Below, in pieces: positions 10,084-33,165 of a DNA stretch of 64,000 nt. Position 1 is the stretch's first letter, and each line of letters starts with the position of its first letter. The position numbers and the translations under genes were made by a program. The DNA is from Scleroderma bovista (taxonomy: Eukaryota; Basidiomycota; Agaricomycetes; Boletales; Sclerodermataceae): the NCBI GenBank assembly GCA_037178675.1, contig JAYMGJ010000499.1, positions 1 through 64,000 on the forward strand, given 5' to 3'. Under the pieces are notes generated by a model. That model saw only the letters and a list, made by a program, of their open reading frames with translations. It did not search any database and had not been told where the DNA came from.

Positions 10084-10740
10084 GTATATTTGAACTCTAG
10101 TCTTGTATGAGTTCACAATCATCTATGTCCAGGACAATCCAAACTTGCTCGCACAAACAACCCAGAACCCTCAGCATCCGACACTTGTCGGGCTGCTGCC
10201 TTGAGCGCTCTGACTAACCTCAGGCGCTCACCTGACTCTGTCTCCCAATTCCAAGGCTTCTCCACTCGGAGAGCCTCCTCCCCCACTCAGTGTCGCCCAC
10301 CTGGGGCTTTCGTCAAAGATCTCGGCAATGACCTAGGTGATGACCATCCCAATGACAATGGCCCCAGTGATGGTGGTCCCGGCAGTGATGGTCCCAACGA
10401 CCCCAATGACCCAAACCCTGATGATGGCAGTGAAGACCCCATTGAGGGCATCCCCAACCAAGAAGAGGCTGGTCTAGTCATTTTCAACAACCTCTCCATC
10501 ACTATCAACAGACTCACGCGATCTTCACGCTCATCTGAGTCCTTGTCTCACACCAAGGTGCGCGAACCCGACACCTTCGATGGGACCGATCCAAAGAAGT
10601 TGCGCACATTCCTAGTCCAGTGTGAGCTCAACTTCCAGGACTGACCAAAGGCGTTTCGCACTGACTGAACCAAGGTCACTTTCGTGCAGTCCTATCTGAA
10701 GGGAATGGCTCTCGCATGGTTCGAGCCAGACCTACTCGGT
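10084..10740 (+). pseudogene. Gypsy-1 gag (5' part), cut by Plavaka element
   Basis: Same protein as Gypsy-2 gag: an acidic Asn/Asp/Pro-rich N-terminal part, then the gag domain (REPDTFDGTDPKKLRTF, SYLKGMALAWFEPDLL). Three TGA codons interrupt it, near 10108, at 10642-10644 and at 10666-10668. The CAA at the homologous Gypsy-2 codon shows that the second came from CGA. The frame is cut at 10740 by the Plavaka element and resumes at 29201. Confidence 0.87.
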
Positions 10741-11100
10741 CATCAGCAAAAGAGGCGAAACCTAGCTAGACCTAGCTAGGCCATACTAGACCAAACAAGG
10801 CCCCTCAGACCTAGTACACCTTGCGAGGAACCATAAATTCTTGCAACCCGCCACTATACCTTGCAAGGACTGCACTGATCTTGCCAAGTCCTACTAGGTC
10901 TGCACACCTTGCTAGGCCTTGCTAGGCCATCCAAGACCTTGTATGTGTCACTCATGCTCACCCACAGCTCGTGCCTTGCTAGGCCTAGTTAGGCCTAGCA
11001 AGGGCATCCAAGACCTTGCACACATCAAATATGCTCGCCGGTAGCTCATGCCTTGCTAGGCCTAGCTAGTTCTTGCCAGATCATGCCATTGCTAGCACAA
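10741..11100. repeat. Plavaka left end: TIR and subterminal repeats
   Basis: A ~20-bp TIR followed by many copies of CCTAGCTAGG, CTTGCTAGGC and CTTGCAAGG-like palindromic units within about 330 bp (10765-11090). Clustered subterminal repeats are the usual transposase-binding sites of CACTA-type elements (family knowledge). A matching cluster is at the right end. Confidence 0.8.
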
Positions 11101-11789
11101 TAAAAATCACATCTATTCATTTATTAATACCACATAACAATAGACCATCTGACCGGCAACAAAAGCATTCCAAACAACAACACATGAACAACAGACAACA
11201 TTAAAGCATTTGAAACAGAATAAAAGGTCCAAATACCACAATTGAAAGCGAAAGCACAACAGCCAAGAGCAAAGGCGCGACAACCGAAAGCATTTGAAAG
11301 TGAAAAGGCATCTAGGGGCTGTAGCAACAAAACTGGGGCAACAGCAATGGGGTAGCGCAAGCGTACCTTTGATAGCTAGTAGCTGGTTCTTGAAGTTGAG
11401 TTGTTTGTGAAGTAGCGAGTAATGAGAGAACAGTTGAACTGTATTGAACTAAGAAACTACAGGGAATCCTACAGGGTATATATACCTGTGGTACATGGTC
11501 TGTGCATAGATAAGTATTGTTCTCGCCTATTTCACCATATTCCCATATGTAGTCGGTGCAGTTTCCATAAACATAGTTATCTGGAAACGTGCCTGTAACG
11601 TGCATCAGCATGTGTTATACACGTGCCTTGCATGTGATAGTTCCGGCTATCTTGTGGAGCTGGTCATGTGATCTACCGGTAATCCGGTTGACACTACTCC
11701 GAATCACATGTAACTGTGATCTCTGGAAATCTCCAAGATTAGATTAAGATAAGATATAATTCATACTTTCTTGTCAACAGGGGCTGGGG
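11101..11789. other. Untranslated part of Plavaka element
   Basis: Sequence between the left subterminal repeats and the 3' end of the minus-strand gene. No conserved frame; probably 3' flank of the DUF6698-like gene. Confidence 0.45.
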
Positions 11790-13504
11790 TCAGAAACCAT
11801 TTGTCTTCTTGGTAGTACGGCAATGAAGTTTCTTGGTAGGAGTGGCGGCCTGCTTGGGATTGACGGAGCCACTGGGAGGTGCAGTGGACGATGCTGCCAA
11901 CTGCGTCGTGTTAGCAACACTCTTACGCATGTGAGACTCATCGAGTTCATTGTCCGAGGGCACTGAGGATAGGTTGGAGTTGTTCCCTGCCTGACCAGTA
12001 GCAGCAGACATGAAGATGCTTGATGCGGATGTGGTTACATCCGAACCTGAGGCATTGGCTTCGGTGGCTTCAGACTCTGTGGGTGGGGGAGTCTCAAACA
12101 CTGGACGCTCCACTGTGTGACGTTTCACGAGTGTTGTGTCTTTCCCTGCACGCTTGGCATGGATCGCTGCCATATTGTTCTTGCATTTGGCTCCATTATG
12201 GACGGCTTGGCTCTTTGGGAAAGCTTGCCTAATAATATCCTCAGATTACGAGTAGAATAATTAGTGATGACGTATGAGTTCCACCATGCGAGGGTCTCGC
12301 GTGTCCATGGATCCATCTCCTTACCGCCGAGTAGCTCAATGATGTTCCATGCCATTTTGCACAAGTCCATGTCACCGATGTTAGCGCCCCAGCATGGTGC
12401 TGTACTCATGGTAAAATACATCTGCCAAGTGTGATCAATTAATGGGCTTGAGGTATCCAATACACATACCACAACATGGACATATGCAATAATAGCCGGC
12501 GTGATCCACATAAGTCCCCAAGCGCGTTCTTCGAGGGTTTCGACGTGTTGCTCGTGACAGCACCTGATGCTGCAGCGGAGGGACTAATGAAGAGGTGAGT
12601 GTAGAACTTTGAAAAGGGGCAGGTTAGTACAACATCGAAGTACTGATGGCAATGCACTCAGAAAGCAGCTTTGCTGTGGAACAACCCCTTCTCCAGGTTC
12701 TCTGGGTCATATACACCATCTTCATAGAAACATGTTGGCCAGTTGTCTGCACAGACATCGATCTGACCACCCTGGAGATCACTCATGGTTCTAAAACAAA
12801 TAAGCGGAGGGCATAATGTGGAGCTAGACCTTACTTATCAGGAGCTTTGTCAAATGACTTAACCTTCTGGGCAGGACAGACCATCCATGTGAGTTGTGGA
12901 TGATTGAAGCCACAGTTTGATTTGTCTTCTGATTTCGGGATCGGCGGGTTGAATGCGCTGCCATCGGGCAGCAGATACGGAAGACCATCATGCTTCACCA
13001 ACCCAAGGTCAGTAGATTTCTGTTCACCCATACCCTTGACTATCTAGATAAATGTAGTTAGTTACCATAGCATATATACATATATAGACTTACCCAACCG
13101 CATATTTCTTTTAACTCCTTCACCTCCATTGTCTCCAATGCCTCTTCGAGACCTAGCATGTGAGTAAGAATGGTCTCATAGACAAGGAGCTGCTGGGAGC
13201 TCTCCTCGCTGTCCCTGTTGGATTAGTTGTGTCAGTACATTGACAATCACCTCTTCGATGTAATTGTACATGTCGATTTCTGCACCACGGCCAGAATAAT
13301 GCTTCAGGCCAACACTGAGAGCAACTCACGGCAACGCGAATGGATGTCCAAGGCACACAAGCTTGCGACCAACGAGTTCATACTTTGCCTTGTCAAATTC
13401 AGCCTGCGATACTCTAATCCTCGACGAATATGTTAGTAGATACATGGTAGTCAATGGGCTTACTTGGGCAGAATGGGTGTGTTTGGCTTTCCTCTCTTGG
13501 GCAT
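11790..13504 (-). pseudogene. DUF6698-like second gene of the Plavaka element
   Basis: Minus-strand, intron-containing gene. Likely start ATG 13504-13502 (MPKRGKPNTPILPK). Exons join over short GT-AG introns, for example about 12786-12834 and 13034-13092. Visible segments: QAEFDKAKYELVGRKLVCLG, then GLPYLLPDGSAFNPP, GFNHPQLTWMVCP, ADNWPTCFYEDGVYDPEN, TPAIIAYVHVVV and the Trp-rich stretch HTWQMYFTM...LAWWNSYV. The C-terminus is Ser/Thr-rich and basic, ending at TGA 11792-11790. TGA at 12660-12658 and frameshifts near 12520 and 12240 break it. I associate this pattern with the basidiomycete DUF6698 group, from memory and without a search. Function is unknown; being inside the TIRs and divergent from the transposase suggests an element-encoded accessory protein. 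Confidence 0.6.
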
Positions 13505-13561
13505 TGCTAAGATTTCATCAGCTAGTTCGGTAGCCTTATGTTTATTTTGATGCATGGATTG

Positions 13562-14885
13562 TGTCAAGACCGGTTCTCCTCGACGATCTTACTAGGAGGT
13601 CCAGAGGTGCAGGGAACTAATGAGGAGGTAAGTCCAGACACTAGTAGGTGCTAGTTAGTGTGGAGAGTCAAGTCCGGGTCAAACGAACGAAGTCCGGGCA
13701 CTAGAGAAGCACAGGGAGTAAGTCCAGGTTTTTGCGGAGTAAGTCCGGACCGCGGGAAAGTGGTCCGGAGTTGAGCGCAGCTTGTCCGGAGCGAAGGACA
13801 TCCAGGTGGGATAAGTCCTGAGAGGTCTAGTGTCGAGTCTGGGACAGAGGTGGCTTTTGCCCTTGTGCAAGTAGGAGACTTGCTAGGATCGGACATAGGA
13901 CCAAGGGGACGAGATAGGATGGAGGCCGGAGTTGGCCGGAGTTCAGGAGAACAAGATGGGATTAGGAGAGCATGGTGGGTAGTACAGAGTGGGGAGTATC
14001 TTAGTCGAGATTTGATCTAAGGAAACTACTAGGCCGGAGTATAGTAGTTTATATAGTAAATGAGAACTAGGGTGAGTATATATGGTGACAAGTAAACACC
14101 TTAGTTGGGACAAGGGATGGAGCAGAAACGGACAGGAAAATAAAGCAGGTACAGGAAAATAAACTGGAGCGGGAGCAGACACGGGGAACTAGAGATACAG
14201 GGACAACAGAGGAAAAGCAGGGACAGTGAAGTAAAGGGAACTAGGTCGGAAGAGGACAGGTAAGGGTTGGAGGTGGACTTAACTAATGTTAAGTCCGGAG
14301 CGATGTCCAGGACCAGAGGAAGTGGGACCAGAGGAAGTGGGACCAGAGGAAGTGCACGACCGGAGGAAGTGCACGACCGGAGGAAGTGCAAGAGTGGAGG
14401 GAGTGCACGAGCAGAGGGAGTGCACGAGCAGAGGGAGTGCACGAGCAGAGGGAGTGCACAGGTGGAGGAAGGGCAGAGTAGCCGGAGGAAGGTCCGGAGT
14501 TGGACATGGAAATGTCCAAGGCCATTGATGGACCTATCAGAGGGAGTGGAGCGGAACAGGAGCAGACATGAGCCGGAGTTGGATGTACCAGCCGGAGTTG
14601 GGCTAGGTCACAGACTAGACAAAGGGAGTGGCCGGACTGAAACCAGAGTAGCGACTAATGGTAGGTACAGGTCCGACATGGAGGAGTTAGACTGTGGATG
14701 TGTCTAGAGGAAGACAGGGGTTAGTCCTGAGGTGGAGATGGATGTAGTGACTGGAGTTAAGCTGGAGTGCAGCTATGAGGCTGGAGATGGCCGGACTAGC
14801 TCCGGAGTTGCGTCAATGCCTAAGGAGAGGGCGGGCGGGCCAGGGTTAGACCGGAGTTGCGACTGGGAAAAGTATGGATATGACA
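13562..14885 (-). mobile_element. Solo LTR-A in Plavaka intergenic region
   Basis: 1324-bp LTR-A, on the plus strand TGTCAAGACC...GGATATGACA, with a perfect GATTG duplication (13557-13561, 14886-14890). It lies between the two Plavaka genes, 57 bp upstream of the DUF6698-like start codon. It contains tandem 15-bp units around AGAGGGAGTGCACGAGC (about 14340-14460). CpGs are largely preserved, suggesting a young copy. Confidence 0.9.
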
Positions 14886-14972
14886 GATTGCATGGATGCA
14901 GACAGAGCGAGTAGTTCAGGATTGATGTGCGCATCTGCCATGTCGATGAGAGGGGATGGTGGGGGGAGGAGG

Positions 14973-17439
14973 TGTCAAGACCGGTTCTCCTCAATGATCT
15001 TACTAGGAGGTCCAGAGGTGCAGGGAACTAATGAGGAGGTAAGTCCAGACACTAGTAGGTGCTAGTTAGTGCGGAGAGTCAAGTCCGGGTCAAATGAATG
15101 AAGTCCAGGCACTAGAGGAGCACAGGGAGTAAGTCCAGGTTTTTGTGGAGTAAGTCCGGACCGTGGGAAAGTGGTCCGGAGTTGAGCATAGCTTGTCCGG
15201 AGCGAAGGACATCCCAGAGGTGGGATAAGTCCTGAGAGGTCTAGCGTCGAGTCTGGGACAGAGGTGGCTTTTGCCCTCGTGCAAGTAGGAGACTTGCTAG
15301 GATCAGACATAGGACCAAGGGGACGAGATAGGACAGAGGCCGGAGTTGGCCGGAGTTCAGGAGAACAAGATGGGATTAGGAGAGCATGGTGGGTAGTACA
15401 GAGTGGGGAGTATCTTAGTCGAGATTTGATCTAAGGACTACTAGGCCGGAGTACGGTAGTTTATATAGTAATGAAACTAAGGTGAGTATATACGGTGACA
15501 AGTAAACACCTTAATGTTGAGACAAGGGATGGAGCAGAAGCAGACAGGAAAATAAACCAGGTACAAGAAAATAAAGCAGGGACAGGAAAATAAACCGGAG
15601 TGGAAGCAGAAACAGGGAACTAGGATTACAGGGATGACGGAGCAGATGCTGGGACAAGTAGGTAAAGGGAACTAGGTCGGAAGAGGACAGGTAAGGGTTG
15701 GAGGTGGACTTAACTAATGTTAAGTCCGGAGCGATGTCCAGGACCGGAGGAAGTGGGACCGGAGGAAGTGCACGACCGGAGGAAGTGCAAGAGCAGAGGG
15801 AGTGTACAAGCGGAGGGAGTGTACAGCTGGAGGAAGGGCAGAGTAGCCGGAGGAAGGTCCGGAGTTGGACATGGAAATGTCCAAGGCCATTGGTGAACCT
15901 ATCTGTCATATCCATACTTTTCCAGTCACAACTCCGGTCTAACCATGGCCCGCCTGACCTCTCCTTAGGCATAGATGCAACTCCGGATCTAGTCCGGCCA
16001 TCTCCAGCCCTATAGCTGCACTCCAGCTCAACTCTGGTCACTACATCCATCTCCGCCTCAGGACTAACCCCTGTCTTCCTACAGACAGATCCGCGGTCTA
16101 ACTCCTCCATGTCGGACCTGTACCTACCACTAGTTGCTACTCCGGTTTCAGTCCAGCCACTCCCTTAGCCTTGTCTGCGACGTAGCCCAACTCCGGCTGG
16201 TACATCCAACTCCGGCTCAGTTCTGCTCCTGCTCCTGCTCCACTTCCTCTGTCAGGTCCACCAAAGGCTTAGGACATTTCCATGTCCAACTCCAGACCTT
16301 CCTCCGGCTACTCCACCCTTCCTCCACCTGTGCACTCCCTCCGCTCGTGCACTTCCTCCGGTCCCACTTCCTCCAGTCCCACTTCCTCCGGTCCTGGACA
16401 TCGGTCCGGACTTAACATTAGTTAAGTCCACCTCTGACCCTTACCTGACCTCTTCCGACCTAGTTCCCTTGTCCCTGCTTTATTTTCTTGTACCTGGTTT
16501 ATTTTCCTGTCTGCTTCTGCTCCATCCCTTGTCTCAACATTAAGGTGTTTACTTGTCACCGTATATACTCACCTTAGTTTCATTACTATATAAACTACCA
16601 TACTCCGGCCTAGTAGTCCTTAGATCAAATCTCGACTAAGATACTCCCCACTCTGTACTACCCATTATGCTCTCCTAATCCATCTGTTCATCTGAACTCC
16701 TGAACTCTGGCCAACTCCGGCCTCCGTCCTATCTCGTCCCCTTGGTCCTATGTCCGATCCTAGCAAGTCTCCTACTTGCACGAGGGCAAAAGCCACCTCT
16801 GTCCCAGACTCGACGCTAGACCTCTCAGGACTTATCCCACCTCTGGGATGTCCTTCGCTCTGGACAAGCTGCGCTCAACTCCGGACCACTTTCCCGTGGT
16901 CCGGACTTACTCCGCAAAAACCCGGACTTACTCCCTGTGCTTCTCTAGTGCCCGGACTTCATTCGTTTGACCCAGACTTGACTCTCCGCACTAACTGGCA
17001 CCTACTAGTGTCTGGACTTACCTCCTCATTAGTTCCCTGCACCTCTGGACCTCCTAGTAAGATCGTTGAGGAGAACCGGTCTTGACACTATCAGGGGAAG
17101 CGGAGCGAAACAGGAGCAGACCTGAGCCAGAGTTGGATGTACCAGCCAGAGTTGGGCTATGTTGCAGACAAGACCAAGGGAGTGGCCGGACTGAAACCGG
17201 AGTAGCGACAAGTGGTAGGTACAGGTTCGACATGGCGGAGTTAGACTGCAGATGTGTCTAGAGGAAGACAGGGGTTAGTCCCGAGGTGGAGATGGATGTA
17301 GTGACCAGAGTTGGGCTGGAGTGCAGCTATGGGGCTGGAGATGGCCGGACTAGATCCGGAGTTGTGTCTATGCCTAAGGAGAGGTCAGGCGGGCCAGGGT
17401 TAGACCGGAGTTGTGACTGGGAAAAGTATGGATATGACA
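14973..17439 (-). mobile_element. Solo LTR-A with a nested, inverted LTR-A
   Basis: Second LTR-A in the Plavaka intergenic region, with a perfect GGAGG duplication (14968-14972, 17440-17444). It is interrupted at 15904-17087 by another LTR-A in opposite orientation; net length about 1.28 kb. Only 82 bp of original Plavaka DNA separates it from the LTR at 13562-14885 after its duplication. Confidence 0.9.
15904..17087 (+). mobile_element. Solo LTR-A nested in LTR-A
   Basis: 1184-bp LTR-A, TGTCATATCC...GGTCTTGACA, with a perfect CTATC duplication (15899-15903, 17088-17092). It is inverted relative to its host LTR, so the three neighbouring LTR-A copies form long inverted repeats. Confidence 0.9.
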
Positions 17440-17444
17440 GGAGG

Positions 17445-17649
17445 TAAAGACACATCGTGGCTGAAGTCGGGAGATAAGGCGGAGATTGAATGCCCGGGCC
17501 ATGCCGTCACTCCAGAATTTCGCTAAGTCCCTCCGAGCCTAATACCATATTAGGTTAATTCCTAATAGTACTACTACCCTTCTTGCCCTCCTCATGCATG
17601 CACCTCCAGCATGCACTTGCTGGGTATTCTCACCTTACTTTTCCTTATC
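17445..17649. promoter_or_regulatory. Remaining promoter side of Plavaka transposase
   Basis: About 200 bp of original Plavaka DNA upstream of the transposase start. With 13505-13561 and 14891-14967 it made up the ~350-bp region shared by two divergent genes before the LTR-A insertions. No clear TATA box; assignment is by position. Confidence 0.4.
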
Positions 17650-20336
17650 ATGGCCAACATTGCTTGCCCATCCTGTGGCAAAACTGTGAAGGGAGAATGT
17701 GGGCTATCAGTCCACATCTCGTGCTGGTGTGCTGCAAATCAATCAGATCTTACTGATTTGCTTCAACAGCATCGAGCATACACCCAGACCATAGCAGAAG
17801 AAGAGAGACTGAGGATTCGTATTGAAAAAGAGGAACAAGCAGAGAGGGAGCGGAAAGAGAGGGAGGAGGACGCATTGCGAGCACAACGACTTAGGAAATT
17901 CGAGAGTCTTGCGGTGAGTGATCTGCCTTTCACGACAAGAATTCCAGTGTTGACCATCTACGTTAGTTTGATGGCCCTGATCTGGGTGAGGATGTCGAAT
18001 GCCAGCCATCTGGCCTTCCCGCTCGCAACCGTCACCTTCCATGTCGGTATCACGATGACCCACCTGCATTACTGATCCCTGCACCCGCCCCTGTCGCTGA
18101 AGAACCAGCAGATTTTTATTCTGAGGCTGCGCCATTCATGGATGACATCAACATGGATGACATTGAATCTAAATCAAGCCAATGGTCTCCTACCCCCTAC
18201 GTTCGTACTGAGTCCGACGGCAATGATTTATTCCACCAATATCACAGTCAATTCCTGTCCTATGACCCTGAAATCATGACTTCCATGGACCAGCTCTGTG
18301 ATGGACCCACGTTCCAGCGCGCTGAAAATGATGAACTGCAGCATCCCCTTCCCCATCCATTCGCCGATTCTCTCCGAGAGTCCTACTTCACCCCATTTTT
18401 GAATGCAACAGTTTGGCATTTAATGGGGTGGTTCTACAACAACTCGACACAGAAGTCTCTCGAAGACCTCAATGGCCTGGTGCACGACGTCATCCTGACT
18501 GACGACTTTGATCGTGAGGACCTCTGGGACTTCAGCACACAGCAGGAAACATGTAGACTCGATGCAGCACCTCATGACCCATCGTCATCGCTCTTCACCT
18601 CTGATGGATGGCACACTGCATCCATACCCATCTGATTACCCTGTGAGAAAGTCAAACAGCCAGAAGATGCGGCCCCCAAATTTCGTGTCGAGGGCCTACA
18701 CTATCGCAAGATCACTGAGGTCGTCAAGTCGGCCTTCAAGGAACCTGCTGCCCAAATGTTCCACACCACGCCATACAAACTCTTTTGGCAGCCAGACAAG
18801 TCTCACCCACCTGAACGTGTCATCACTGAGCTGTACACGTCCGACGCCATGCTACAGGAATACGAAAAGATTAAGGGCTCCCCAGTTGTGGGCTGCAACC
18901 TCCAGACGGTCATCGCCACAATCATGTTATGGTCCGACTTGACTCATCTTGCAAGCTTCGGCCATGCCACGCTCTGGCCAATCTACCTATTCCCTGGAAA
19001 TCAATCCAAGTACACATGGGCCAAGCCTACCTCATTTGCTGCCCATCACCTTGCCTACATCCCTAAGGTATGTTATTGCTTGGCTCACATGTGCTTGAAC
19101 TAACATCATCCTAGCTATCTGATACTATACAGGACTTTTACATGAAGACATTCGGTATGAGTGTGACTGTGGCCATGCTGACACACTGCAAGCATGAACT
19201 GATGCAGGCCATCTGGTCGTTTCTGCTTGACTCAGAGTTTATTGAGGCATATGAGAAGGGTATGGTGATCAGATTCCCTGATGGGATCCTTTGCCAGGTT
19301 TTCTTGTGTTTATTCACATATGCAGCTGATTACCCAGAAAAGTAAGTGCTAGGCACATATTACTTCATTGTTCTGATGGACATTACAGGATTCTTCTCGC
19401 CTGCATGAAATTTCTCAGCAACTGTCCCTGCCTGCATTGTTTGGTCACCAAGGACAAGATCTACAAGCTTGGGACAAAGATTGACCAGTGGGTACGTGAC
19501 AAGAAAGCATGCGTCGATGATGGGGCCCGCCACTGTTTAATCGAAGGCGTACGCAAAGCTATATTTGACCTTGGCCGTAGCATTTCCGGCAAGGTTGTTG
19601 AAGGTGCCATCAGAGCAAAGTCTCTGGTGCCCACCCAGGTACGTGCTACTCATATTTACTATACTTTCTGACTTATTCTCTCTAGAATGCATTTTTGGAG
19701 AAGCTCTCAAAGTTCGGCTTCAATTTTTACTCAATGCTCGTGCCAGATTTCATGCACAAGTTCAAGCTTGGTGTATGGAAAGCGACATTAGCCCATCTCA
19801 TCCATATCCTATACGCAGCTGGGGACAATGCTGTGCAGCAATTCAATGCCCGGTAAGTCGCACTGGGCTTTATCCTTATGTTATACTTATCAAACTATTA
19901 GGTTCCGGCTAGTACCAACGTTCGGGTGAGATACCATCTGGAGATTCAGCAGCAATGTCTCAGGGCTCACAAAACTCGCAGCAAGAGACTTTGAAGATAT
20001 TTTACAGGTTCATGACACACCTATGGACATTTTTCCTTCGGATCTCAGGATCAGGATCAGTGCGCTATCCCAGTCTTCGATGGATTACTCCCCAACCTAT
20101 ATGACACCATCATCCTCAACCTCCTCTTCAAGCTTGCCACCTGGCATGCCTTCGGAAAACTTTGCATGCACACTGAGACAACACTTTTCCACTTTGGTAA
20201 TTGCACAATGCGCCTTGGCCAGGCCTCTCACGATTTCTCGTGGAAATGTGGTGCCAAGTTCCAGACGTATGACCTCCCTCGTGAAACCGCAGCTTGTGGA
20301 TGATGCAAGGGTGCCAAAAGTGCCAAAACGGGGACA

Positions 20337-20626
20337 GTGTATAGAAAGGTGGTGGTCTGCACAGGGAAGGTCTAGCCCTGAAGGAAGGGAGAAGGAGAGC
20401 TGTAGGGTAACCTCAGTATGCTGGCAAGCTACTTTATATTAGTATATACCTGTAGGGTAACTACAAGGTATCAGTAAGTATGTGGTGGTTAGTAGATGGT
20501 ACTCACCCTCAGTATGCTGGCAAGCTACTGAGGGAACTATGGTACTAGGAACTCTACTCTAGTGCGATGCATGCTTATGTAAGTAGGTAAATATACCACA
20601 ACAATCTGTTTATAACTCCAACACAG
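20337..20626 (+). other. Unusually long intron or small insertion in transposase
   Basis: 290 bp separating two conserved Plavaka exons. It can be read as a GT-AG intron (GTGTAT...ACACAG) or as a small TG...CA insertion (TGTATAGAAAGG...CTCCAACA) with CAG on both sides. It contains the direct repeat CTCAGTATGCTGGCAAGCTA twice (about 20412 and 20508) and GTAGGGTAAC twice. Other introns of the gene are about 50 bp. Confidence 0.5.
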
Positions 20627-21978
20627 CGGCGGGTGACACTGCAAGTGGAGGACCCAAGGCACATACCTTCAATATGTCGACCTACAAATTACATGCGCTG
20701 GGTGACTACATCAAGTCTATTTGGCAATTTGGAACAACAGACAATTATTCTACCCAGGTGGTAAGTGGGTCTCTGACATTTCTTACTGTTTACCTCAGCC
20801 ACAACCAGGGAGAGTTGGAACATTGTCGAGTCAAGTGCTTCTACTCACGGATGAACAAGATCGGCTTCACGCATGCAATTGCCAAACACCAACAACCCGA
20901 GTGCCTACTGCACAGAATTCGGCAGGAGAATCAAGCCATAGCTGCGGCAGCCAAAGAAAGAGAAATACATCTACCAACTGCAGGCGGCAAACACCCCTCC
21001 CTACACTTTGTCAACCAGGAACCACTGCCTAACTGTGCGCCTGATGCTCACTACCAGATATCACAAGGAAAGAAATTTTATTGGGACCTAGGTGCCTGGT
21101 TGGCGCGCAACAAGGACGACAAAGCACTAGAGGTACGTCCATATAGCCTCGAAGAACTGGAATTGACACTTTTGCAGGGCTTCCTCCAGAAATTAAAAAA
21201 CCATATCCTGGGGTGCATCATACCAGGTAGCAAGGCTGACAATGGAGACGAGGAGTTCACACTCACTCAATGCAATGCACTCCATTTCATCAACAATCAC
21301 ATCTATCGCCACAAGGTCCTATGCATCAACTACACTACATATGACCTTCGCCGGGCGCAGGATTCCCTGAACCCATGGACACATTCAGACGTCATGGTCC
21401 TCTCACACGAAGATATCGAGAATGCCCACCCTTACTGGTATGCACGAATCATTGGTATATTTCACACGGATGTCCAATACTGCGGCCCTGAACTCAGCAA
21501 TCATGCGCCCAGATGGATCAATTTTATCTGGGTGCAATGGTTCGTGTGCAATAGAAGCATCCAGTCTGGCTGGGCTGTGCATCGTCTGCCCTGCATCGGT
21601 TTCTATCCTCAAGGCAAGCCTGAGGCATTCGGATTCATTGACCCAGAGCAAGTTATTCGTGCGGCACACCTCATCCCAGCCTTTTGTTTCGGGCATACTA
21701 CGGCCTTGTTACCACCATCAATCGCACACCGCAAGTCCGAGAAAGATGAAGACTGGGACTGGTACTATGTCAATATGTACGTAACACAAGTTCTTTGATA
21801 GCTCTCTAACTAGCTATTGCAGTTTTGTTGATTGTGACATGTTTATGAGGTACCAGGGCGGGGGAGTTGGGCACAAAGTGACTCGCGAAGCGACACGGTG
21901 CCTTCTAGATGACTGCAACGTTCTCAACAAGCAACCTTTTACCTTTGAACATGACTGCCAACCATTCGAAGAAGAGAT

Positions 21979-22266
21979 TGTTGAAGCAATACCTATATAC
22001 ATAGAGGAACTGCTACTCCAACTCACCTGTTGGGTGGAGTGCACAACCTGAGATGGTAGCGGTAGCTGGTCAAGAGCTGTTATATTATATAAGCGATGAA
22101 CACTGTTTATATACAACAAACATTGTGACACGTGACTGTGACACATGATGTGTGACATGTAACATCTACTCTAAAGAGGACTATTACTAAGTCTACACTA
22201 ATATGGGTCGCAGTCTTGTGCGCACTTCGTCGACGGTTTACGCCGGGTGCACGTGTGACTTCAACA
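21979..22266 (-). repeat. Copia-1 3' LTR
   Basis: 288-bp LTR, on the plus strand TGTTGAAGCA...GACTTCAACA. It closely matches 28234-28521; differences include CACGTG versus TGTGTG near the middle. A CpG-depleted fragment of this LTR lies at 42707-42793. Confidence 0.92.
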
Positions 22267-22312
22267 CTCCCCCTCGCTGTGCTGCACGTAGAGCACTTCA
22301 GTGAATAAGGTG

Positions 22313-25300
22313 CTAGATGCTGCCAGAGGGAAACTGTAAGCCTAGTTGAGCTCTGAACTTCGCGAATTTCTCGCGGGGTAAGTTCTTGGTGAGCAGATTG
22401 GCAGGATTCTCAGCACCATCAATGAAGAATAGCTCCACATTACCTTTCGCGACTGACTCGCGGATTCTGTGGTAGCGGATGTCGATGTGCTTGGAGCGAG
22501 GCTCCATTACAGGGTTGGATGCCATGAATATGGACCCCTGATTATCACTGCAAATCGGGATAGCTTTCAGCTTATAGCCAAGCTCACCAAGCAAACTTCG
22601 AATCCAGGTAACTTGGCGAGCGCAATTGCTCAAAGCCATGTATTCGGCCTCAGTGGACAAGTATGCAATGGTCTTCTGCGCACGAGAAGTCCAACTGATC
22701 AAGCCATCTGCAAGTTTCAGGTAGAAACCTGTCTGTGAGAGGCGAGAGATAGGGTCTGATCCCCAATCTGAGTCCATGCATGCAATCAGGCCAGCACCGG
22801 ATCCACCATTGTACACTAGGGAGTAATTAGGTGTACCAATCAAGTAGCGACAAATATAAAGCACTTTGGACAGGTGGTCCTGGGATGGATTCGCGGCATG
22901 GCGCGAGAGATGGGTGACTGCAAAAGCAATGTCGGGCCTAGTGCCTAACATAAGGTACAGAAGGGACCCAATAACCATCTGGAAACGGGAGCGGAGTTCC
23001 GCATCAACAGGCTCTGTATTCTTGGGGGCATAGTAGCCAGCCGGCAGTGGGGTGCTTGCAGACTTTGCATTGAGCATGCCGCAGCGTTCGATGAACTTTT
23101 GGAGGTACGCGCATTGATCCAGGTGGATAGCGTGACCTTTGTGAGTGATTCGCATTTGGAGGAACTCCTTAGGTTCTCCAAGGTCTCTGCACTCCCATTT
23201 GCGCATGAACTGTGCTTTAATGGCATCAACAACAGCCTTGTTAGGGCCGCAGAATAGTGTGTCGTCAATGTAGATAATACCAATGACGATGTTGGTGCCT
23301 TTCTTCTTATAGAAGAAGATGCCTGCTTCAGATTTAAGGTGCTCAAACCCGAGCTCTTTGAGAGACTCATCAAGTGTGCGCCACCAAGCTAGGCCAGCCT
23401 GTTTGAAGCCATAGAGGGCATGCCAGAGGCGGAGCACTTTGTGCTCTTGCCCGGGAACTGCAAACCCTTTGGGTTGTTCCATGTAGATCTCTTCGTCGAG
23501 CTTGCCATACAAGTAGGCGCTCCGAACGTCAAGTCCAGTGATATACCAGTTTTCAAGTGCGGCAAGCGCAAGCATGAGGCGCACTGTTTCAAAGCGCACA
23601 ACTGGTGAGAAGACCTGGTCGAAATCTAATCCCTCGACCTGGGAGAAGCCTTTCGCTACTAAGCGGGCTTTCTTGCAGCCATCCGACTTCACGTCGAAGA
23701 CCCATCGATTCTTTATGACCTTCCGGTCTCAGGGACGGTCAACTAGCTCAAAGACCTTGCGCTTTCGCAGCACGTCGAGCTCTTCTTGGCAAGCAAGTTG
23801 CCAGAGTTTCTGCTCAGCTTGGGGTAAGCGAGCGATGTCCTTGTAGGACCAGTTGCGGACGCTCTTATATTGAGGCTCATGGGTTTCGAGGGCTTTGCCC
23901 ATCAGGTATCGGACTAGGTTTGCTCCCCCTTCCTCGCACATCTTTTGCACATCTTCCTCACTGGGCGTTGCAGAGGTGTCGGGGAAACCACCAGGGATAT
24001 GGTCTGGTGTGTCCGGTTGTGGGGGCCTAGGGGCCTCACCCACTGTTTCTTGCCATCGAGAGGCACTTTTGATATCCCGGAGTTGCTCGACGGGATGTCG
24101 CCGCTCACCATACACGTTACCGGGGCACAATGGCGCTCTACGTTCATGTTGGAGGCGGGCAGGGATATTCACTGCAGGGGGTCGCGGCGCATTCTGGCGG
24201 CGTTCAGCTTGGCCAGGGCGCTGCGGTGCCGGAGGTGGCGGATTTCTCGCCGGTGAAGGCGTTCTCAGTGCTGGTGGAGGCACTGGAGATGGTGTATGGG
24301 GAGGATTTATTTGGTTAGGCTCTTCCTCAGGAGCCTCAGGTTCCTCGCGCTTTGGATCGTCATCCTGCGCTTGGGGATGTGGGTAGCTGTCAAGTCCGGG
24401 TCTACTCCGGTAGGGGGTCCGGTCAAGTCCGGACAGAAGCGGACGAAGGGGGAGAGCAGAGGGCTGGACAAGAGATTAGTCCGGCCGGAGTTGGTGACCG
24501 CTTGGATTCAACGACTAAGGACAACGAGCGTTGATCCCTTGCGTAGGTTCCGGTCAAGAAGGGGAGACGGAGACAGAGACGGAGACGGGCAAGATCAGGA
24601 GTAGAGACTATGGTTGATTTCAGACTGAGGTATACAGGACGGAGTACAGGGTACTTATACTACGGAGAACTAGGGTCGAGTATTTACGGTGACAAGTAAA
24701 CAGCCCAAAGGGCGGACAAGGAATAACCGGAGTTGGGACTAGGTCAGGTCCGATGAAAATAAGTAAGGTCCGGAGAAAATACTACAAGGTAGAAGATATA
24801 AACAGAGCACAGAGAACTCACGGTACTACAGGGTTGACGGAGAAGTGAAGTAACGACTGGATAGGGATTAATGCAAAGGGTCGCACTTAGCGGAAGAGTA
24901 TGTGCGCGTCCGGGACCGGAGTAACGCGCAGAGGTCCGGAGTTGAACTGTAGTGCTGCGATGCGACCGGAGTAACCGGATAAGAGTCCAGAGTTGGACAT
25001 GGTCGTAACAGTAGCCATGGTCGTGTTCCACATCATCATCACTGTCAGTATCATCAGGGGGATTCCCTGGTCGATCAGTGGCTGGTTTCGGATTTACCCT
25101 TCCAAAAGGGTTCTCGAGAGGTTCATGCCTGTTCTTAGGGCAGCGAGGGAAATGACGCTCGTCAAAGACGTGTGAGCAGCGGTAAACACTGCATTGGTGG
25201 AGCGCATGAACAAAAAGTTGTGCTCATTGCCAGGGGCAACACCGACATAAGTCATAAGCTCTGACTTGGGAGCCATTTTATTCGCTCTAGCCATTGCTGG

Positions 25301-27850
25301 GAGGTATACAAATGCTCCACAGCCAAACACACATAGGTGGTTGATGTTAGGCATCTCCCCCTTAAGCATTTCATGGGGGGTGCGCCATCACAGGCGAGCT
25401 ACCGGAGTATGGTTGTAAATGTGGGTTGCGTGAGCAAACACAAATTCCCACCAGGAGTCAGGAATGCAGGCTTGATGCCGCATAGACTCAGCTTTATCCA
25501 TGAGAGTGCACCCTAAATGCTCGGCGCGGCCATTCTGCATGGGAGTTCTTGTAGCACTTTGATATATTTTAATTCCTTTCTCAAGGAGTGCTCGATCAAA
25601 CAGATTGGATTTATACTCTCCGCCGGCATCGGACATCCATCCAACGACGTGCGTATCATGTTGGACGCGCACCATTTCAAGGAAATCTTTGGCAGCTGTA
25701 ATCGCTGCAGCTTTGGAGCGAAGAGGCATAGTCCAGGCGTGAGAAGTATAGTCGTCGTAGAAGGTGATAACGTATTTAAACTTCCGGTACAACGTAACCG
25801 GGAAGGATTTCAGATCAGAGTGCACCACCTTGAAGGGCTTGGAAGCACGTCTTTCATTCTCTGGGAAAGCTCGATTGGGCATCTTGCCAAGAGCACACCC
25901 AGGGCAAACACAGTCCTCGGTTGGAAAGTGGATCTCCGGGAAGCGCTGCGTATGTTTTTGTGCGCACCGGAGTACTTCCTTTGAGGGGTGCCCAAATCTC
26001 TGGTGCATAATGTCGTAATCGACTTTGCTCACGGAGGCGATATAGTTAGATCTAATTATTGGGATAGATCTAATCCCAAAAATGATGTTGCGATCGTCTT
26101 CTGGGTCTGGCCCAAACCATAGGTGTTCTGCTTTATGGATGAGGCTAATGCCTCACTTATCGCCAGTGACTTTGTAATTACGCTGGAGCATTTCGCCCAT
26201 AAAAATAAGGCGTGCAGTAGCGCCTGGCATATGGAGCACTTGGGTGAGTGTAATGACTTTCTCATCCCCTGAGTTGTGGTCTAGGCACCAGAGTAATACC
26301 GTGCCAATGCCAGCAATTAGTGCTACACCATTAGCTGTTTTGGTGTAGTGCGCTCGCTTTAGTGCATTATAGGAGGCGAAATCGCCTATGTCACTGGTGA
26401 AGTGGTGTGATGCGCCAGAGTCTAGGAGCCAGAAGGCACCAGAAAGTTCACTATCATCAACCATTTTTCCCTTACAGCCAGCACAGTGTGCATCATTCAG
26501 ACACGAACAGATATATGCATTGCTCGAGGGGACACGACACGACATATTGTAGTTACTACTCGCTATATACAGTGACGGCATAAAGCGCACATGTAAAGGG
26601 AGCGTGTCAGTGTCGGTCAGCATGCGTGCAGAAGGTACTTGCCTGAAAAGGCTGGCCTCCGCGCCCATCGCCATCGACGTCGCATTGTAGCGGTCGAGGA
26701 CCATCGCGTCAATCTCGTTGAACTCATCGTCGGCGAAGGGCTCATGAGCGAATGGTTCATCATCCCCAAGAGAGATGGCATCCTCCTCATACATCGTGAT
26801 GCGCTCCTCAAGGCGAGGGCACTTCAGCGAGGAGGGACCGGCCTCGGGCTGGTCCAGGTTCGCACTTGCCATCAACACAACTTGGTCGAGGGTGCGGATG
26901 GTCTGGCAGGAGGGCTCTACCCCCAAGTGGTGTGCCAAGTTGAAGGCCTTAATAGTATTTGTGAATGCGGGGGGGCCGTAGTGGGCAGCACCAGGAGTGT
27001 GAGCCAGGGCGCGAGGGTCGACGGTGGGCTCTGGTCCATCATAGTGGACGTAAGTGGCGAAGGCTGCCTGTTGGGCGTTCTCGCAGCGAGTGCGAGCCTT
27101 CTTGCCGCCACAGCGTGTGCAGCCTCCTTGTCCTTGGGCAGGAGTGTTTCCGCTCACACCGCCGTTGGACCCGCCTTGCTGCTGCTGCTGCTGCTGGGCA
27201 AATTTGGGGTCAGCCGGCTTGCGCTTCACAGCGCTAAGCTTGTTGGCCTGTGGGCCCTTACCACCGGCGCGCGAAGAGGCGCCTTTCTGCTCAAAGGAGA
27301 GCGTGGCGGCCTTGACGATCCCGTCGGGCTTCAGATTTTTGATTTCATCTGGCGACGTCTGGCTGAGTATTTGAGCTACAACCTCCATAGTAGGAGGGAG
27401 CTTGCAGAGGATGATCATTGCCTGCACGGGGGCAGCGAACTCGAAGCCGGTGTCTTTGAGGTACGGGAAGTGGCTAAGCACTTTGGTGATGGCCGGAGCG
27501 GGATGGGAGCCAGCAGGAATGGTGGTTGCCAGGAGCTTGCTAAGCTCAGCATAGGCAGAGCCAATACTGGGGGCGCCGAAGTTCTTCAGGTGGTCCCAGA
27601 CTTCCTTAACGCTGTCGAGATTCGAGACAGCGACCTGGATGGAGGGCGCAAGGCGCAAGGTGATGTTACCAAGCGCTCTCTCAGTGTTGTCGTCCCATTC
27701 CTTTCGGTTGTTGTGACCGTCAGCAGGTTGCATCGTCGAGTAAACGTACCATTGGACTTGTGCCTAAAGGTAGGCCTGCATAGAGGTGTGCCACTGCTGC
27801 CAGTTGGAGCCAGTGAACACGGGAACCATCTTGTCGAGAGCGCTGGACAT
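22313..27850 (-). pseudogene. Copia-1 gag-pol polyprotein
   Basis: Begins MSSALDKMVPVFTGSNWQQW at 27850. Gag shows FGAPSIGSAYAEL and a degenerate knuckle (CTRCGGKKARTRC, no His). Protease has FWLLDSGASHHF (~26430). Integrase has the HHCC start (HQRFGHPSKEV...CPGCALGK), HSDLKSF, SDAGGEYKS and a TxxPMQNGRAEH-like segment. RT has DVRSAYLYGKL and an intact YIDD (~23265). RNase H has SDNQGS and KHIDIRYHRIRE, ending at 22313. Breaks: TAG near 27767, TGA 26155-26153 (the related copy at 63076-63074 has CGA), TGA 25390-25388, the LTR-C insertion at 24388-25010, and TGA 23731-23729 (PRDRK expected). Confidence 0.9.
24388..25010 (-). mobile_element. Solo LTR-C inside Copia-1
   Basis: 623-bp LTR-C, on the plus strand TGTCAAGTCC...GGTCGTAACA, with a perfect GTAGC duplication (24383-24387, 25011-25015). 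It interrupts the Copia-1 integrase-RT linker. Being the innermost layer and rich in CCGG, it is one of the youngest insertions. Confidence 0.92.
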
Positions 27851-28233
27851 GGTGATATTCTGTTGGGAGTCAACAGAGTCAGCAAATGAATGTGACAATG
27901 GACAAGCAAGAAAAGAAGAAACACCTGAGTGCTAGTGAAAGCACTTCTGTCAACAGCTTACTCATGACTAGGTCATGCCAGCACAAGTCGTTGACAATGT
28001 TCGCCATAGTTGGCGCAAGTCATCAACGAACTTTGCCTGGGGCAATACAGGTGCTCAACTAGGAGCTCACTGTCTGGCGCAAGTCGTCGACCAACTTCGC
28101 CTTGTGGCTGTGCAGGGGCTCAGCTAGGAGCTCACTGTGGTCCACAGTGTCAAGCTAGTTAAAGCGACACTCAGGGAGCTGGAGCGCTGCCTGGTGCATT
28201 GCTGCACACAGTGCACTCACAGGGCTCATAACC
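27851..28233 (-). other. Copia-1 leader
   Basis: Untranslated region between the 5' LTR and the gag start. It contains two copies of a ~40-bp repeat around GTCGTTGACAATGTTCGCC / GTCGTCGACCAACTTCGCC (about 27985 and 28085). No gene. Confidence 0.6.
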
Positions 28234-28521
28234 TGTTGAAGCAATACCTATATATGTAGAGGAACTGCTACTCCAACTCACCTGTTGGGTGGAGTGCACA
28301 ACCTGAGATGGTAGCGGTAGCTGGTCAAGAGCTGTTATATTATATAAGCGATGAACACTGTTTATATACAACAAACATTGTGATGTGTGACTGTGACGTG
28401 TGATGTGTGACATGTAACATCTACTCTAAAGAGGACTATTACTAAGTCTACACTAATATGGGTCGCAGTCTTGTGCGCACTTCGTCGACGGTTTACGCCG
28501 GGTGCACGTGCGACTTCCACA
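28234..28521 (-). repeat. Copia-1 5' LTR
   Basis: 288-bp LTR partner of 21979-22266. It ends CTTCCACA at 28521, one base different from CTTCAACA in its partner. It is followed by GAGAT, where the Plavaka C-terminal exon resumes. Confidence 0.92.
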
Positions 28522-29029
28522 GAGATTGACAATGATGTCCCCATGGATGACTCAAGCAGTGACAAGGAAGAAAGCAACAAGGAAAGCAAGGATGATGGGT
28601 CAGAAATGGAAGAGGTCGATGGCGGAGATGATACAAAGCTGATTGACGATGAACTCAACAATGAAATGGGAGAATATGGGTACAGTGGACTGGATCAAAT
28701 ACTGGATGATGACGAAGGTGACGTTGAAGTATCTGGCGATGAAGATGCACTGGGCCTGGAGGATGGGAAGATCCTGATGATGAGGTTGGACATGCTGAGC
28801 TCTGAGCTCGCTTGGTTTTCTTGTTGATGCACACATTTTTTTGCCTGGTACTAGTATGCATTTTGACGAGCATCTCACACAATTCAACTGTTGCAATGTT
28901 GATGTTCTTTACCATGTAAATTTCGTGCCAATGCTGGCTAGGTCTTGCTTGACATGGCATGAGGAACACACTATGTATGTACAGATGAGCTAATCCTAGG
29001 GAGTCCTTGGTCGAGCTGGCACGGCTGTG

Positions 29030-29200
29030 TAACTTTCTTGCTAGGCCTTGCAAGGCCTAGCGAGGTGTGGGTCTGACTCTTGCCAAACTTGACCAGGTCT
29101 AAGATTCCCTTGCAAGGACTAGCTAGACATTGCTAGAATCACTGGGTTTCTCCAAGGCTTGCAAGGTGATGCTAGGTAGGTTTCACCTCTTTTGCTGATG
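29030..29200. repeat. Plavaka right end: subterminal repeats and TIR
   Basis: Mirror of the left end: CTTGCTAGGC, CTTGCAAGGC, ACTAGCTAG and CTTGCAAGG units, then the inverted terminus CCTCTTTTGCTGATG ending at 29200. The 28828-29030 stretch before it is the 3' flank of the transposase. Confidence 0.8.
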
Positions 29201-29841
29201 GTGCTGGAGACCCCCACAACCATCCGATCTGGATGACCGACTGGGAAGAGTTCATTATTGAACTCCAAACAACCTTTGGTCCCCACGACCCTGTTGCTGA
29301 CGCCAAGCATCAGCTCAACCACCTCCACATGAAGGAAAACCATTGTGCTAATCAATACATGGTTGACTTCAACCGCATCACGTCCCAGGTTCAGGGCTAT
29401 GGTGATGGCGCCCTGCGTCATCACTTCTATACAGGTCTCCCCGACCAAATCAAGGATGAGATAAGCTGCATTGGTAAACCGCACACTCTGAATGGTCTTT
29501 GTGTCCTCACCCAGGAGATCGATGCCCGATATTGGGAACGCAAGGAAGAGGTTGCTCTTCAGAACAAGACCTCTACCAGCACTAGTACCAACACCCCCAA
29601 CACCAAGTCGGGTAAGACTGACAAGGGTAAATCCTCAGGCAACGCTGCCCAGTCTTCTTTGTCATCAAGCCCGACTCAGAAAACTAACAAGTCGGGCAAG
29701 ACTGCTGAGCTTTCGGACAAGCTCGGCAAGGACGGCAAGCTGACCTCTGAGGAATGCAAGCACAGGTTCAACATGAATCTGTGCATGTTCTGTGGTGCAA
29801 CTGGCCACAAGGCCAAGGACTGCCCCAAGTCAGGCTCTTGA
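29201..29841 (+). pseudogene. Gypsy-1 gag (3' part) with zinc knuckle
   Basis: Resumes the gag domain after the Plavaka element (GAGDPHN, DWEEFIIELQTTFGPHDPVA, YMVDFNRITSQVQGYGD), then a Ser/Thr/Lys-rich linker and an intact zinc knuckle CMFCGATGHKAKDC (CX2CX4HX4C). TGA at 29839-29841 stands where Gypsy-2 has CGA (6847-6849), a directly observed CGA/TGA pair. Confidence 0.9.
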
Positions 29842-32800
29842 GCAGCCAAGGCTAGGGCAGCTACCACCACCACTATGAACACCACGTCAGAAGCCAAACT
29901 GACAGCCTCCACCGAGGCAAAAAAATAGATAGCAACTCCCAAGACTCCGCACAGAGTGGGAGTTGCGTTGTTCCTGACTGTGCACCTATGGAGGCCCAAC
30001 TCAACACAGCCACTCTTTCCGATCCAAACTCTCTCCGACCCTCTATAACAATCGTTGACCATACTATGCCTTCCTTTCCTGCATTAGTAGATTTGGGTTC
30101 TACCCATTGTTTTGTAGATCCATCTTTTGCCAATATGAACACTCTTTCACGCTACTCAGTATCCCCAATCGTTCTCCGACTATTCGACAGTACCACCACC
30201 ACCATAATCACCGAAGCAACTGATCTACCCATCCAATTTCCCTCTGGCGACATCACCCTGATGACATTTTATGTCACCCCATTGGACTCTGACTGTAAGA
30301 TTGTTCTCGGACACAACTGGCTCACCCAATACAATCCATTGATTGACTGGGTACTGAGCAGTATCAAGTTCAGAACATCTACACAGCAAGTGCCAACCCT
30401 GAGCTCACTCCCCGACCCTGTAGTGCCCTCACCAAGCATGCTGAGACTCAACGCTACGTCAGTCTCGTCTCCTTCCCCGACCGACTCGCCTCAGGCTCCC
30501 AGTCTTCGGGCACCTCCTATCGCTCTCATCAACGCTGCAGCCTTTCTGAAGGCTTGCCAGCTTGATGGCTCTCAACAGTTCTCTATTCAGCTGAAGCCTG
30601 ATGGCAGCCTTCCCGCTGCGTCGGTTGACGCTACTCCTGACCTCTCCTCTGTCCCCGAGGCATACCACAACTTTGCCAACGTCTTTAGCAAGGTGAAAGC
30701 ATCGGTACTCGCACCTCATTGGGAATATGACCTTAAGATAGAACTGGGAGAAGGAGCGCCATTACCGCCCAGTAGACTCTACTCTCTCTCCCCTGTCGAG
30801 CTCAAAACCCTTTGGGCATTCATTGATGAAAACCTTCGCTTTAGTTTCATCCATCCGACCTCATCCTCCCATGCAGCCCCTGTACTCTTCATCAAGAAGA
30901 AGGACGGCTCTCTCCGACTTTGCGTCAACTACTGAGGACTCAACAAAATATCAAAGAAGGATCGGTACCCGCTACCTCTCATCTCCGACCTACTCGACTC
31001 CCCAAGTCAGGCAAAGGTCTATACCAAAATTGATCTTCGACATGCTTACCATCTGGTTCGCATTGCCAAAGGTGATGAGTGGAAAACCGCCTTCAGGACT
31101 CGCTATGGCTTGTATGAGTGGCAGGTGATGCCCTTCGGTCTCACCAACACCCCTGCAGCCTTTCAGCGATTTGTCAACTCGGTCTTCGCGGACATGCTCG
31201 ATGTCTGCGTTGTAGTCTACCTCAACGACATCTTAGTCTACTCGGACAATATGGAGGACCATACTGAACACGTTCGGGAAGTGCTTCAGTGACTCTGCCA
31301 GCACAAGCTTTACGCCAAGCCTGAAAAGTGTGAGTTCCATTCAGACTTGGTGGAGTACCTGAGGTACTTCCTCTCCCCCAACGGTTTGACAATGTTGCAA
31401 GACAAAGTCAAGACAATCTGTGATTGGCCCAAACCTCGCAAGGTGAAGGTCATTCAGTCCTTCCTGGGCTTCATGAACTTTTACTGTCAATTTATTTTCA
31501 ATTACTCTGATATAGTGGTTCCATTAACTCGGTTGACATGGAAAGATGCCCCCTGGGATTTCTCTGACGTCTGCCGATGGTCATTCAACCAACCCAAGAA
31601 GGCCTTCACCACAGCTCCCATCCTCACCCATTTCCAGCCAGGCGCCCAACTAACAGTCGAGACTGACACTTTGGACTACGCGATCGCCAGTATCCTATCC
31701 ATCACAGGTTCAGATGCCGAGATACGACCAATTGCGTTTTACTCTCGCACTCTGACCGTGCCCAAGCTAAATTATGATACACACAACAAGGAGCTCCTCG
31801 CTATTTTCGAGGCCTTCAAGACCTGGCATCATTATCTGGAGGGCCCTGCCTTCCCGATTGACGTTGTGACCGACCACAAGAATTTGGAGTACTTTTCTAC
31901 CTCTAAGGTTCTCACCTGTCGGCAAGCCCGATGGTCAAAATACCTCTCCTTTTTCAACCTGGTCATTCATTTCTGACCTGGTAAACTTGGTACAAAGCCC
32001 GACACCTTGACTAGATGCTGGGACATCTACCCCAAAGAGGGGGATAGGGGCTTCACCCGAGTCAATCCACAGAACCTCCGACTGGTGTTCATGGCTGAAC
32101 AGCTCACCGATTCCCTTCACCCAACATACCTACACACTCCAGTACTCAGAGCAAGTGCACTCATGGATGTCAAGCGTCTCCATGCTGATATCCTAGCCAA
32201 CCTCCTGACTGATCCCATCGCTAAAGCCCACCTCTCAGACACATCAAATCCCCGATGGTCAACTGACGAGACTGGTTACCTACATCTCGATGGCCGCATG
32301 TATGTTTCTGAGGCCGATGACCTATGTCTTCGTGTCCTCAGATACAAGCATGACCATTCCCTATCGGGACACTTCGGTCAGAACCGCACCCTAGAGCTCA
32401 TTCGTTGCAAATACACATGGCCAGGCATTTGTACCTATGTAAAGGACTATGTTAAGTCCTCCACAGCCTGCACCCGAGCTAAGACGCCACGTCACCAACC
32501 CTATGGGATGCTCAAGCAATTACCAGTCCCCAACCAACCTTGGAATTCCATCTCGATGGATTTCATCGAGCAACTCCCATCCTCATCCGGCATCACAGCC
32601 ATACTGGTAGTCATAGACCGACTATCAAAGCAAGCCATATTCATCCCGACTCACGACACAATAACTTCCCCCGAGCTCACACAGCTCTTCCTACTACACG
32701 TCTTTGCTAAGCACGGCGTCCCCGCGCACATAACATCTGACCGAGGCTCAGAGTTCGTCTCCCATTTCTTCCGATCACTCGGTAAGGCCTTAGATATGAA

Positions 32801-33165
32801 ATTACATTTCACTTCAGGCTATCACCCAGAAGGTGACGGACAGACCGAGCGAGCTAATCAAACACTCGAGCAATACCTCAGGATGTACTGCAATTACCAG
32901 CAGGACAATTGGTTGGACTTACTACCTCTTGCCGAGTTCGCCTACAACAATGCCCCTAGCGCTACGACTGGCGTATCACCATTTTTCGCGAACAAAGGAT
33001 ACCACTCGAACCTCGCTGTGCACCCCGAGTGTGATCTCTCATCGGCTTCAGCATGGGAATACGCAGTTGATTGCGACCGATCCCGGACACACATCAGAAC
33101 TTGTGGCCAACTATCATAAGGCCTACCTGACTAAGCCAGGCCCCTTAGAAAGCCTCTCACGCTAA
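29842..33165 (+). pseudogene. Gypsy-1 pol: protease, RT, RNase H, integrase
   Basis: Pol polyprotein making the enzymes of reverse transcription and integration. Protease: VDLGSTHCF (family DSG; Ser to Leu is one CpG transition). [44 protein letters not shown] and YLND at 31218-31229 instead of YxDD, so the first catalytic Asp is lost. RNase H: ETDTLDYAI, HNKELLAI. Integrase: zinc-binding end with SSTACTRAK (first Cys lost), then D (SMDFIEQLP), D (TSDRGSEF) and E (GQTERANQTLEQ). TGA at 30933-30935, 31290-31292 and 31974-31976 each replaces a predicted Arg. At about 33080 the frame jumps from integrase WEYAVD to the very C-terminal segment GHTSELVANYH, so the GPY/F and chromodomain region was deleted. 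Confidence 0.92.

Follow-up and report, generated by a model that had tools for sequence, protein, structure and literature searches.

DNA transposons may encode, alongside the transposase, an accessory gene that contributes to their activity or counteracts silencing, as in MuDR (mudrA/mudrB) and Hiun (VANC), and elements of the CACTA type carry repeated short motifs just inside their ends, among them the subterminal repeats of maize Spm/En. Spm/En follows a two-protein plan with one DDE transposase, and its transposition needs both TNPA and TNPD, the latter stabilizing the binding of TNPA on DNA (PMC1636069). In fungi, the closest described system is PlavakaB (Kojima 2025, PMC12730594), defined by termini of the form 5′-CATCA..TGATG-3′, a target-site duplication (TSD) of 2 or 3 bp and a Plavaka transposase, whose DDE residues are accompanied by C(2)C and H(3-4)H motifs; some of its members, the TET+ Plavaka elements, carry an accessory gene for a TET/JBP dioxygenase. 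According to the same source, Kyakuja and other TET+ fungal elements are likewise DNA transposons with a second gene, and the TET genes have moved between transposon lineages. Here, we describe an element in a window of 64,000 nucleotides (positions 1 to 64,000 of contig JAYMGJ010000499.1, C498 in the contig numbering used below) from the basidiomycete Scleroderma bovista, whose genome was surveyed over 51.8 Mb and 850 contigs. The element shares with PlavakaB its termini, its 2-bp TSD, its Plavaka transposase and the possession of an accessory gene, whereas that gene is here a divergently oriented DUF6698 gene (PF20414), which has long accompanied the transposon group to which the element belongs and has been kept there by selection.

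The element spans positions 10741–29200 and measures 18,460 bp, having been lengthened by several insertions. It is bounded by terminal inverted repeats (TIRs) of 29 nt that are 93% complementary, the left one at 10741–10769 on the forward strand (CATCAGCAAAAGAGG...) and the right one at 29172–29200 on the reverse strand (...CCTCTTTTGCTGATG), and is flanked by the TSD GT (10739–10740 and 29201–29202), which adjoins Gypsy frames. A forward reading frame at 18636–19103 matches the Plavaka family PF18759 (E 2.1e-14; 53.9 bits, cut-off 26.3). By its CATCA..TGATG termini, 2-bp TSD and PF18759 match, the window element is a PlavakaB-type, CACTA-like DNA transposon. An earlier note on this DNA had proposed that one TIR pair encloses both a transposase and an intron-bearing, DUF6698-like gene, and the PF18759 and PF20414 matches do both lie between these repeats. 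The DUF6698 gene (11790–13555, reverse strand) has about eight exons in a pattern that agrees with the copies on contigs C42 and C305 described below; seven exon starts were placed by script from anchors chosen by eye, and the last exon was read by eye. Its PF20414 match, in the reverse-strand frame 12125–12583, reaches 50.1 bits (E 3.6e-13; cut-off 23.7). The transposase gene runs on the forward strand from 17650 to approximately 28827 in broken frames, with a finger-like N-terminus (CPSCGK..H..C), the Plavaka core and an acidic C-terminal tail. The DUF6698 gene is interrupted by in-frame TGA codons at 13328–13326 and 12660–12658. Comparison by eye with C42 and C305 adds a frameshift in exon 6 and, at the start of the last intron, ATACGT in place of the GTATGT donor of C42. 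The window copy is a relic in which both genes are dead.

The two genes are arranged head to head, as the earlier note had stated, and what remains of the divergent intergenic region, a putative promoter, occupies 17434–17649. The start codons are separated by a block of tandem and inverted LTR-A copies (13560–17428; LTR, long terminal repeat) bordered by TGGAT on both sides (13555–13559 and 17429–17433). This block is located at the DUF6698 start codon, so the spacing without it is about 220 bp rather than the 350 bp first suggested. Intact spacing of this kind is seen in two related elements of the same genome. A scan with the TIR pattern, in which three mismatches were allowed, returned 21 places against one for a control pattern, among them three complete TIR pairs: that of the window, one on C42 (32469–38224, TSD AC) and one on C305 (24395–33319, TSD TG). 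Both of the latter elements have CATCA..TGATG termini and contain the same two genes head to head, their start codons lying 236 bp (C42) and 223 bp (C305) apart, and the short divergent spacing of 220–236 bp in all three supports the putative shared promoter that had been proposed. The C305 copy of DUF6698 comprises eight exons, one of its splice donors being of the GC-AG kind, and has an unbroken reading frame for a protein of 513 aa. On C42, the transposase core has been lost and most of DUF6698 is kept, with a frameshift (read by eye).

Recent mobility of copies that retain DUF6698 is seen in another clade, that of locus L001. Its sequence recurs at 98–99% identity along approximately 3.26 kb at loci L002 and L003 and at 99% along 2.58 kb at L004. 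The three matches keep DUF6698 and stop within one base of each other at ...GTTAAACCTGTGGTG, beyond which the flanks differ. The common stop followed by differing flanks marks a sharply defined mobile end, of the CAC..GTG type, with DUF6698 immediately inside it in this clade, and a similar end, with two mismatches, lies behind the DUF6698 genes on C178 and C532. A left end bearing the same 17-base terminus was sought for these CACCAC-ended copies and was not found, and a short open frame upstream of DUF6698 at L001 has no Pfam match. Two CACCAC-type ends face each other 6.7 kb apart on C244 (6341–13076), without a listed DUF6698 or transposase between them, and may represent a non-autonomous relative.

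The association extends well beyond the TIR-bounded copies. Searches with two pieces of the window transposase gave, after merging, 86 transposase loci, and the PF20414 search (best 150 of 210 matches) gave 73 merged DUF6698 loci, or 74 with the window; the counts below refer to these listed matches. A DUF6698 gene was listed on the same contig for 46 of the 86 transposase loci, and the nearest one stood head to head at 40 of them (38 distinct DUF6698 genes), in tandem at four and tail to tail at two. Set against a random expectation of one quarter, this orientation has a binomial probability of 1.4e-18, a value that is too small because some of the loci are near-identical copies; clustering at 90% identity reduces the 36 fetched transposase core sequences to 21 groups. 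Of the pairs of the window group lying within 30 kb, 40 of 44 were head to head, in contrast with 1 of 11 for the 123 best PF18759 loci, which represent a different Plavaka set, and 2 of 8 for 150 listed matches to Tet_JBP (PF12851). PF18759 alone was rejected as a probe for the window's transposase group, which it misses, its 123 listed loci having none in common with the 86; it is this list that served as the control. The gap between the matched pieces does not exceed 2.5 kb in nine of the 40 head-to-head pairs (C305, C42, C290, C482, C481, C737, C193 and two on C1) and 5–28 kb in the others, including 6.1 kb in the window, where the LTR-A block is counted, 18.6 kb on C491, which belongs to the window clade, and 5.4 kb on C774, a relative of C737. 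Across a broad set of related transposases in this genome, the divergent arrangement is thus the usual one, and the proposal that the second gene is part of the transposon and travels with its transposase is borne out by the three TIR-bounded pairs, by the orientation and by the distances between copies.

These distances were compared for fragments of both genes from 22 loci, a subset of the 40 pairs, with FastTree trees taken as unrooted. The Mantel correlation was 0.84, a value reached by none of 20,000 permutations (largest 0.40), and it remained at 0.81 when near-identical loci were dropped to leave 20 (again none of 20,000; largest 0.38). The same four groups appear in both trees, namely window/C305/C491, C290/C481/C1/C737 (with a support of only 0.71 in the DUF6698 tree), C568/C59/C423/C546/C131/C140/C626 and C281/C333/C385/C178/C277/C68, and the nearest neighbour agrees between the two genes at 14 of 20 loci. 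The comparison of phylogenies that had been suggested therefore succeeds at the level of the four clades. The earlier note had named, as the contrary outcome, Plavaka copies that lack the gene together with a gene tree that does not track the transposase tree; taken as a whole, this is not what was found. Selection, estimated by Nei–Gojobori counting as the ratio of non-synonymous to synonymous divergence (dN/dS), gave 0.14–0.16 for DUF6698 of C178 against C277, C300 and C63, and the same range for the transposase of C178 against C277 and C300, while the pair C568/C59 gave 0.11 for DUF6698 and 0.22 for the transposase. In most of the measurable pairs, purifying selection acts on DUF6698 about as strongly as on the transposase.

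What the DUF6698 protein might do is suggested by the ends of the element. The palindromic motif CTNGCNAG occurs 11 times in the left 350 bp, in an array at 10762–11079 (shuffle mean 0.34), and seven times in the right 350 bp, at 28934–29165 (shuffle mean 0.15). Across the three TIR-bounded elements, there are 18, 10 and 19 sites in the 700 terminal bp (350 per side), against mid-element densities of 0.34, 0.20 and 0.24 per kb and shuffle means of 0.10–0.34 per end, so that arrays of short motifs lie near both ends in each, as in Spm/En. From these dense subterminal palindromes and the CACTA-like layout, DUF6698 may, by analogy, be an end-gathering co-factor. We propose that the complete element consists of two genes, a DDE-type transposase and DUF6698, diverging from a common region of about 220–240 bp, and that DUF6698 would be a transposition co-factor resembling TnpA of Spm/En, a reading to which we assign a probability of roughly one in two. 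DUF6698 would then help to gather both ends, through the CTNGCNAG arrays, into the transposase complex and may additionally regulate the shared putative promoter; its binding to DNA is a guess. More tentatively, DUF6698 could constitute a new class of obligate co-factor, with an unseen fold, in a CACTA-like group of Agaricomycetes that would include both CATCA-ended (PlavakaB) and CACCAC-ended members.

Several observations weigh against this proposal. At the protein level, sequence and fold searches of the PDB with DUF6698 gave no significant match and no DNA-binding fold, and the median isoelectric point of 98 sequences of at least 340 aa is 6.57; the idea of a basic DNA-binding protein was accordingly not borne out. 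The transposase has an N-terminal finger of its own (CPSCGK/CPACND in the copies of the window, C42 and C305) that could bind the arrays, and TnpA of Spm is produced from the transcription unit of its transposase, whereas DUF6698 is produced from a divergent gene. The pairing itself appears incomplete: for 40 of the 86 transposase loci and 29 of the 74 DUF6698 loci, the contig carries no listed DUF6698 gene and no window-type transposase, respectively, both figures being upper bounds on true absence on account of contig ends and of the restriction to listed matches. The DUF6698 gene of C438 stands without a transposase among the matches listed, and on C210, where a related transposase (71% at the DNA level) and the right end are present, neither DUF6698 nor the left TIR was found between 30001 and 50000. 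These cases tell against pairing as a strict rule. Within the four groups, the correlation of distances is low, at r 0.31, with 145 of 20,000 permutations reaching that value, and dS between C568 and C59 differs threefold, at 0.67 for DUF6698 and 0.20 for the transposase, a mismatch suggesting that one of the genes was exchanged or that the two were wrongly paired over 20–26 kb. Taken together, the weak agreement within clades and the dS mismatch indicate that an old association of DUF6698 with the transposase has been blurred at the tips by some exchange or mispairing. Lastly, dN/dS rises to 0.45 for DUF6698 in the decayed pair C42/C491, and in some nearly identical pairs, where changes are few, the ratio is high or unstable, such as 1.22 on five differences for DUF6698 of C120b/C300 and 1.71 on 14 differences for the transposase of C274/C546.

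DUF6698 might instead be an anti-silencing or epigenetic factor that keeps the promoter active and is dispensable for the cut-and-paste reaction, with parallels in TET/JBP of other fungal transposons and in the plant proteins VANC and MURB. An obvious target would be the putative promoter between the two genes, and the 150 listed PF12851 matches place no Tet_JBP gene in any of the 40 head-to-head gaps or within the three TIR-bounded elements, so that DUF6698 could fill the place that Tet_JBP takes in TET+ elements. Sequence and fold searches, however, revealed no similarity of DUF6698 to dioxygenases or other chromatin enzymes, and the age of the pairing, which spans four clades, favours a core over an optional function. 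Moreover, TET genes passed between transposon lineages several times (PMC12730594), whereas DUF6698 tracks its transposase at the clade level, and we regard an anti-silencing role as rather unlikely.

It is less probable still that the transposase alone recognizes the ends by its finger and that DUF6698 acts as a copy-number regulator or repressor, for instance a transposase inhibitor. The finger-like N-termini mentioned above would agree with such a division of labour, as would the C438 copy and the retention of most of DUF6698 on C42 in the absence of the catalytic core, but this retention shows little because the C42 gene is itself frameshifted, and a self-limiting factor would less readily be expected to stay under purifying selection from copy to copy. 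That DUF6698 is merely a captured host passenger gene, or a chance neighbour of Plavaka in repeat-rich regions, appears very improbable. The DUF6698 loci without a window-type transposase on their contig would be expected under this explanation, and on C359 a DUF6698 gene lies 4.4 kb from another Plavaka transposase in the same orientation; these two were considered as a single element and rejected on reading the locus, which gave no sign of one. Against it stand the excess of head-to-head pairs within 30 kb over both controls, the similar promoter spacing in three TIR-bounded elements and the recurrence of the same four groups in both trees.

The analogy with Spm/En has its limits. The two-protein plan of Spm/En (PMC1636069), with one DDE transposase, would be shared by the window element, which also has repeated motifs inside the ends. 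TnpA and TnpD are, however, splice products of one unit, whereas the genes of the window are divergent, and the window termini read CATCA rather than CACTA. DUF6698 matched only its own Pfam family, PF20414, at 67.4–197.8 bits in six Boletales homologues, and a Pfam scan of these six proteins returned no other family above its cut-off. The AlphaFold model of P0047, a DUF6698 protein from another clade, is confident and all-helical (predicted local distance difference test 87.6; predicted template modelling score 0.82), and no solved structure matched it significantly. The TET+ fungal elements differ in the identity of the second protein and in its passage between lineages (PMC12730594).

Protein searches for relatives of DUF6698 gave 8, 30 and 269 hits, and the organisms named among those listed (8, 30 and the best 120) are Agaricomycetes, mostly Boletales, together with Athelia and Piloderma. 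A literature search found no mention of DUF6698, although a text search could miss other names, and a text search of the main text of PMC12730594 found no DUF family named. The second gene, apparently long kept and co-inherited, suggests that many 'hypothetical proteins' of the DUF6698 family are parts of transposons. A large family to which the literature searched assigns no function thereby gains a biological home, and whether its members are co-factors in the manner of TnpA, counter silencing or act as regulators becomes a testable question. If true, many such fungal proteins would be transposon rather than host genes, which would hold for a good number of the genes annotated in ectomycorrhizal and other mushrooms, and the two-protein plan of plant CACTA elements would extend to fungi, with an apparently unrelated protein. 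Among 151 DUF6698 sequences, 11 have the end ...NGF, which is replaced by a different, acidic tail in P0002 and P0006 of Boletus edulis.

Some DUF6698 copies, on C359, C22, C690 and C7, are not head to head with a window-type transposase, and the first three, whose PF20414 scores are identical, may be copies of one another. Tet_JBP is strongly expanded in this genome, with at least 150 matches, many of them open and of equal score, and is unlinked to the DUF6698 genes. Beyond the DUF6698 stop codon, the window element has been entered at 11320–11780 by a dispersed repeat of about 460 bp with at least 40 other copies at 96–97%, perhaps a solo LTR from a young family. Inside the transposase lie a dispersed repeat of about 286 bp (20338–20624; about 40 copies among the matches listed, most at 89–97%), possibly a short interspersed nuclear element or a miniature inverted-repeat transposable element, and a Copia element on the reverse strand (21979–28521) whose LTRs, at 21979–22266 and 28234–28521, are 97% alike. 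The transposon as a whole separates two parts of a Gypsy element, read by eye: to its left lies a gag-like frame (10111–10740), and to its right (29201–33119) follow frames for gag, protease, reverse transcriptase and an integrase-like protein.

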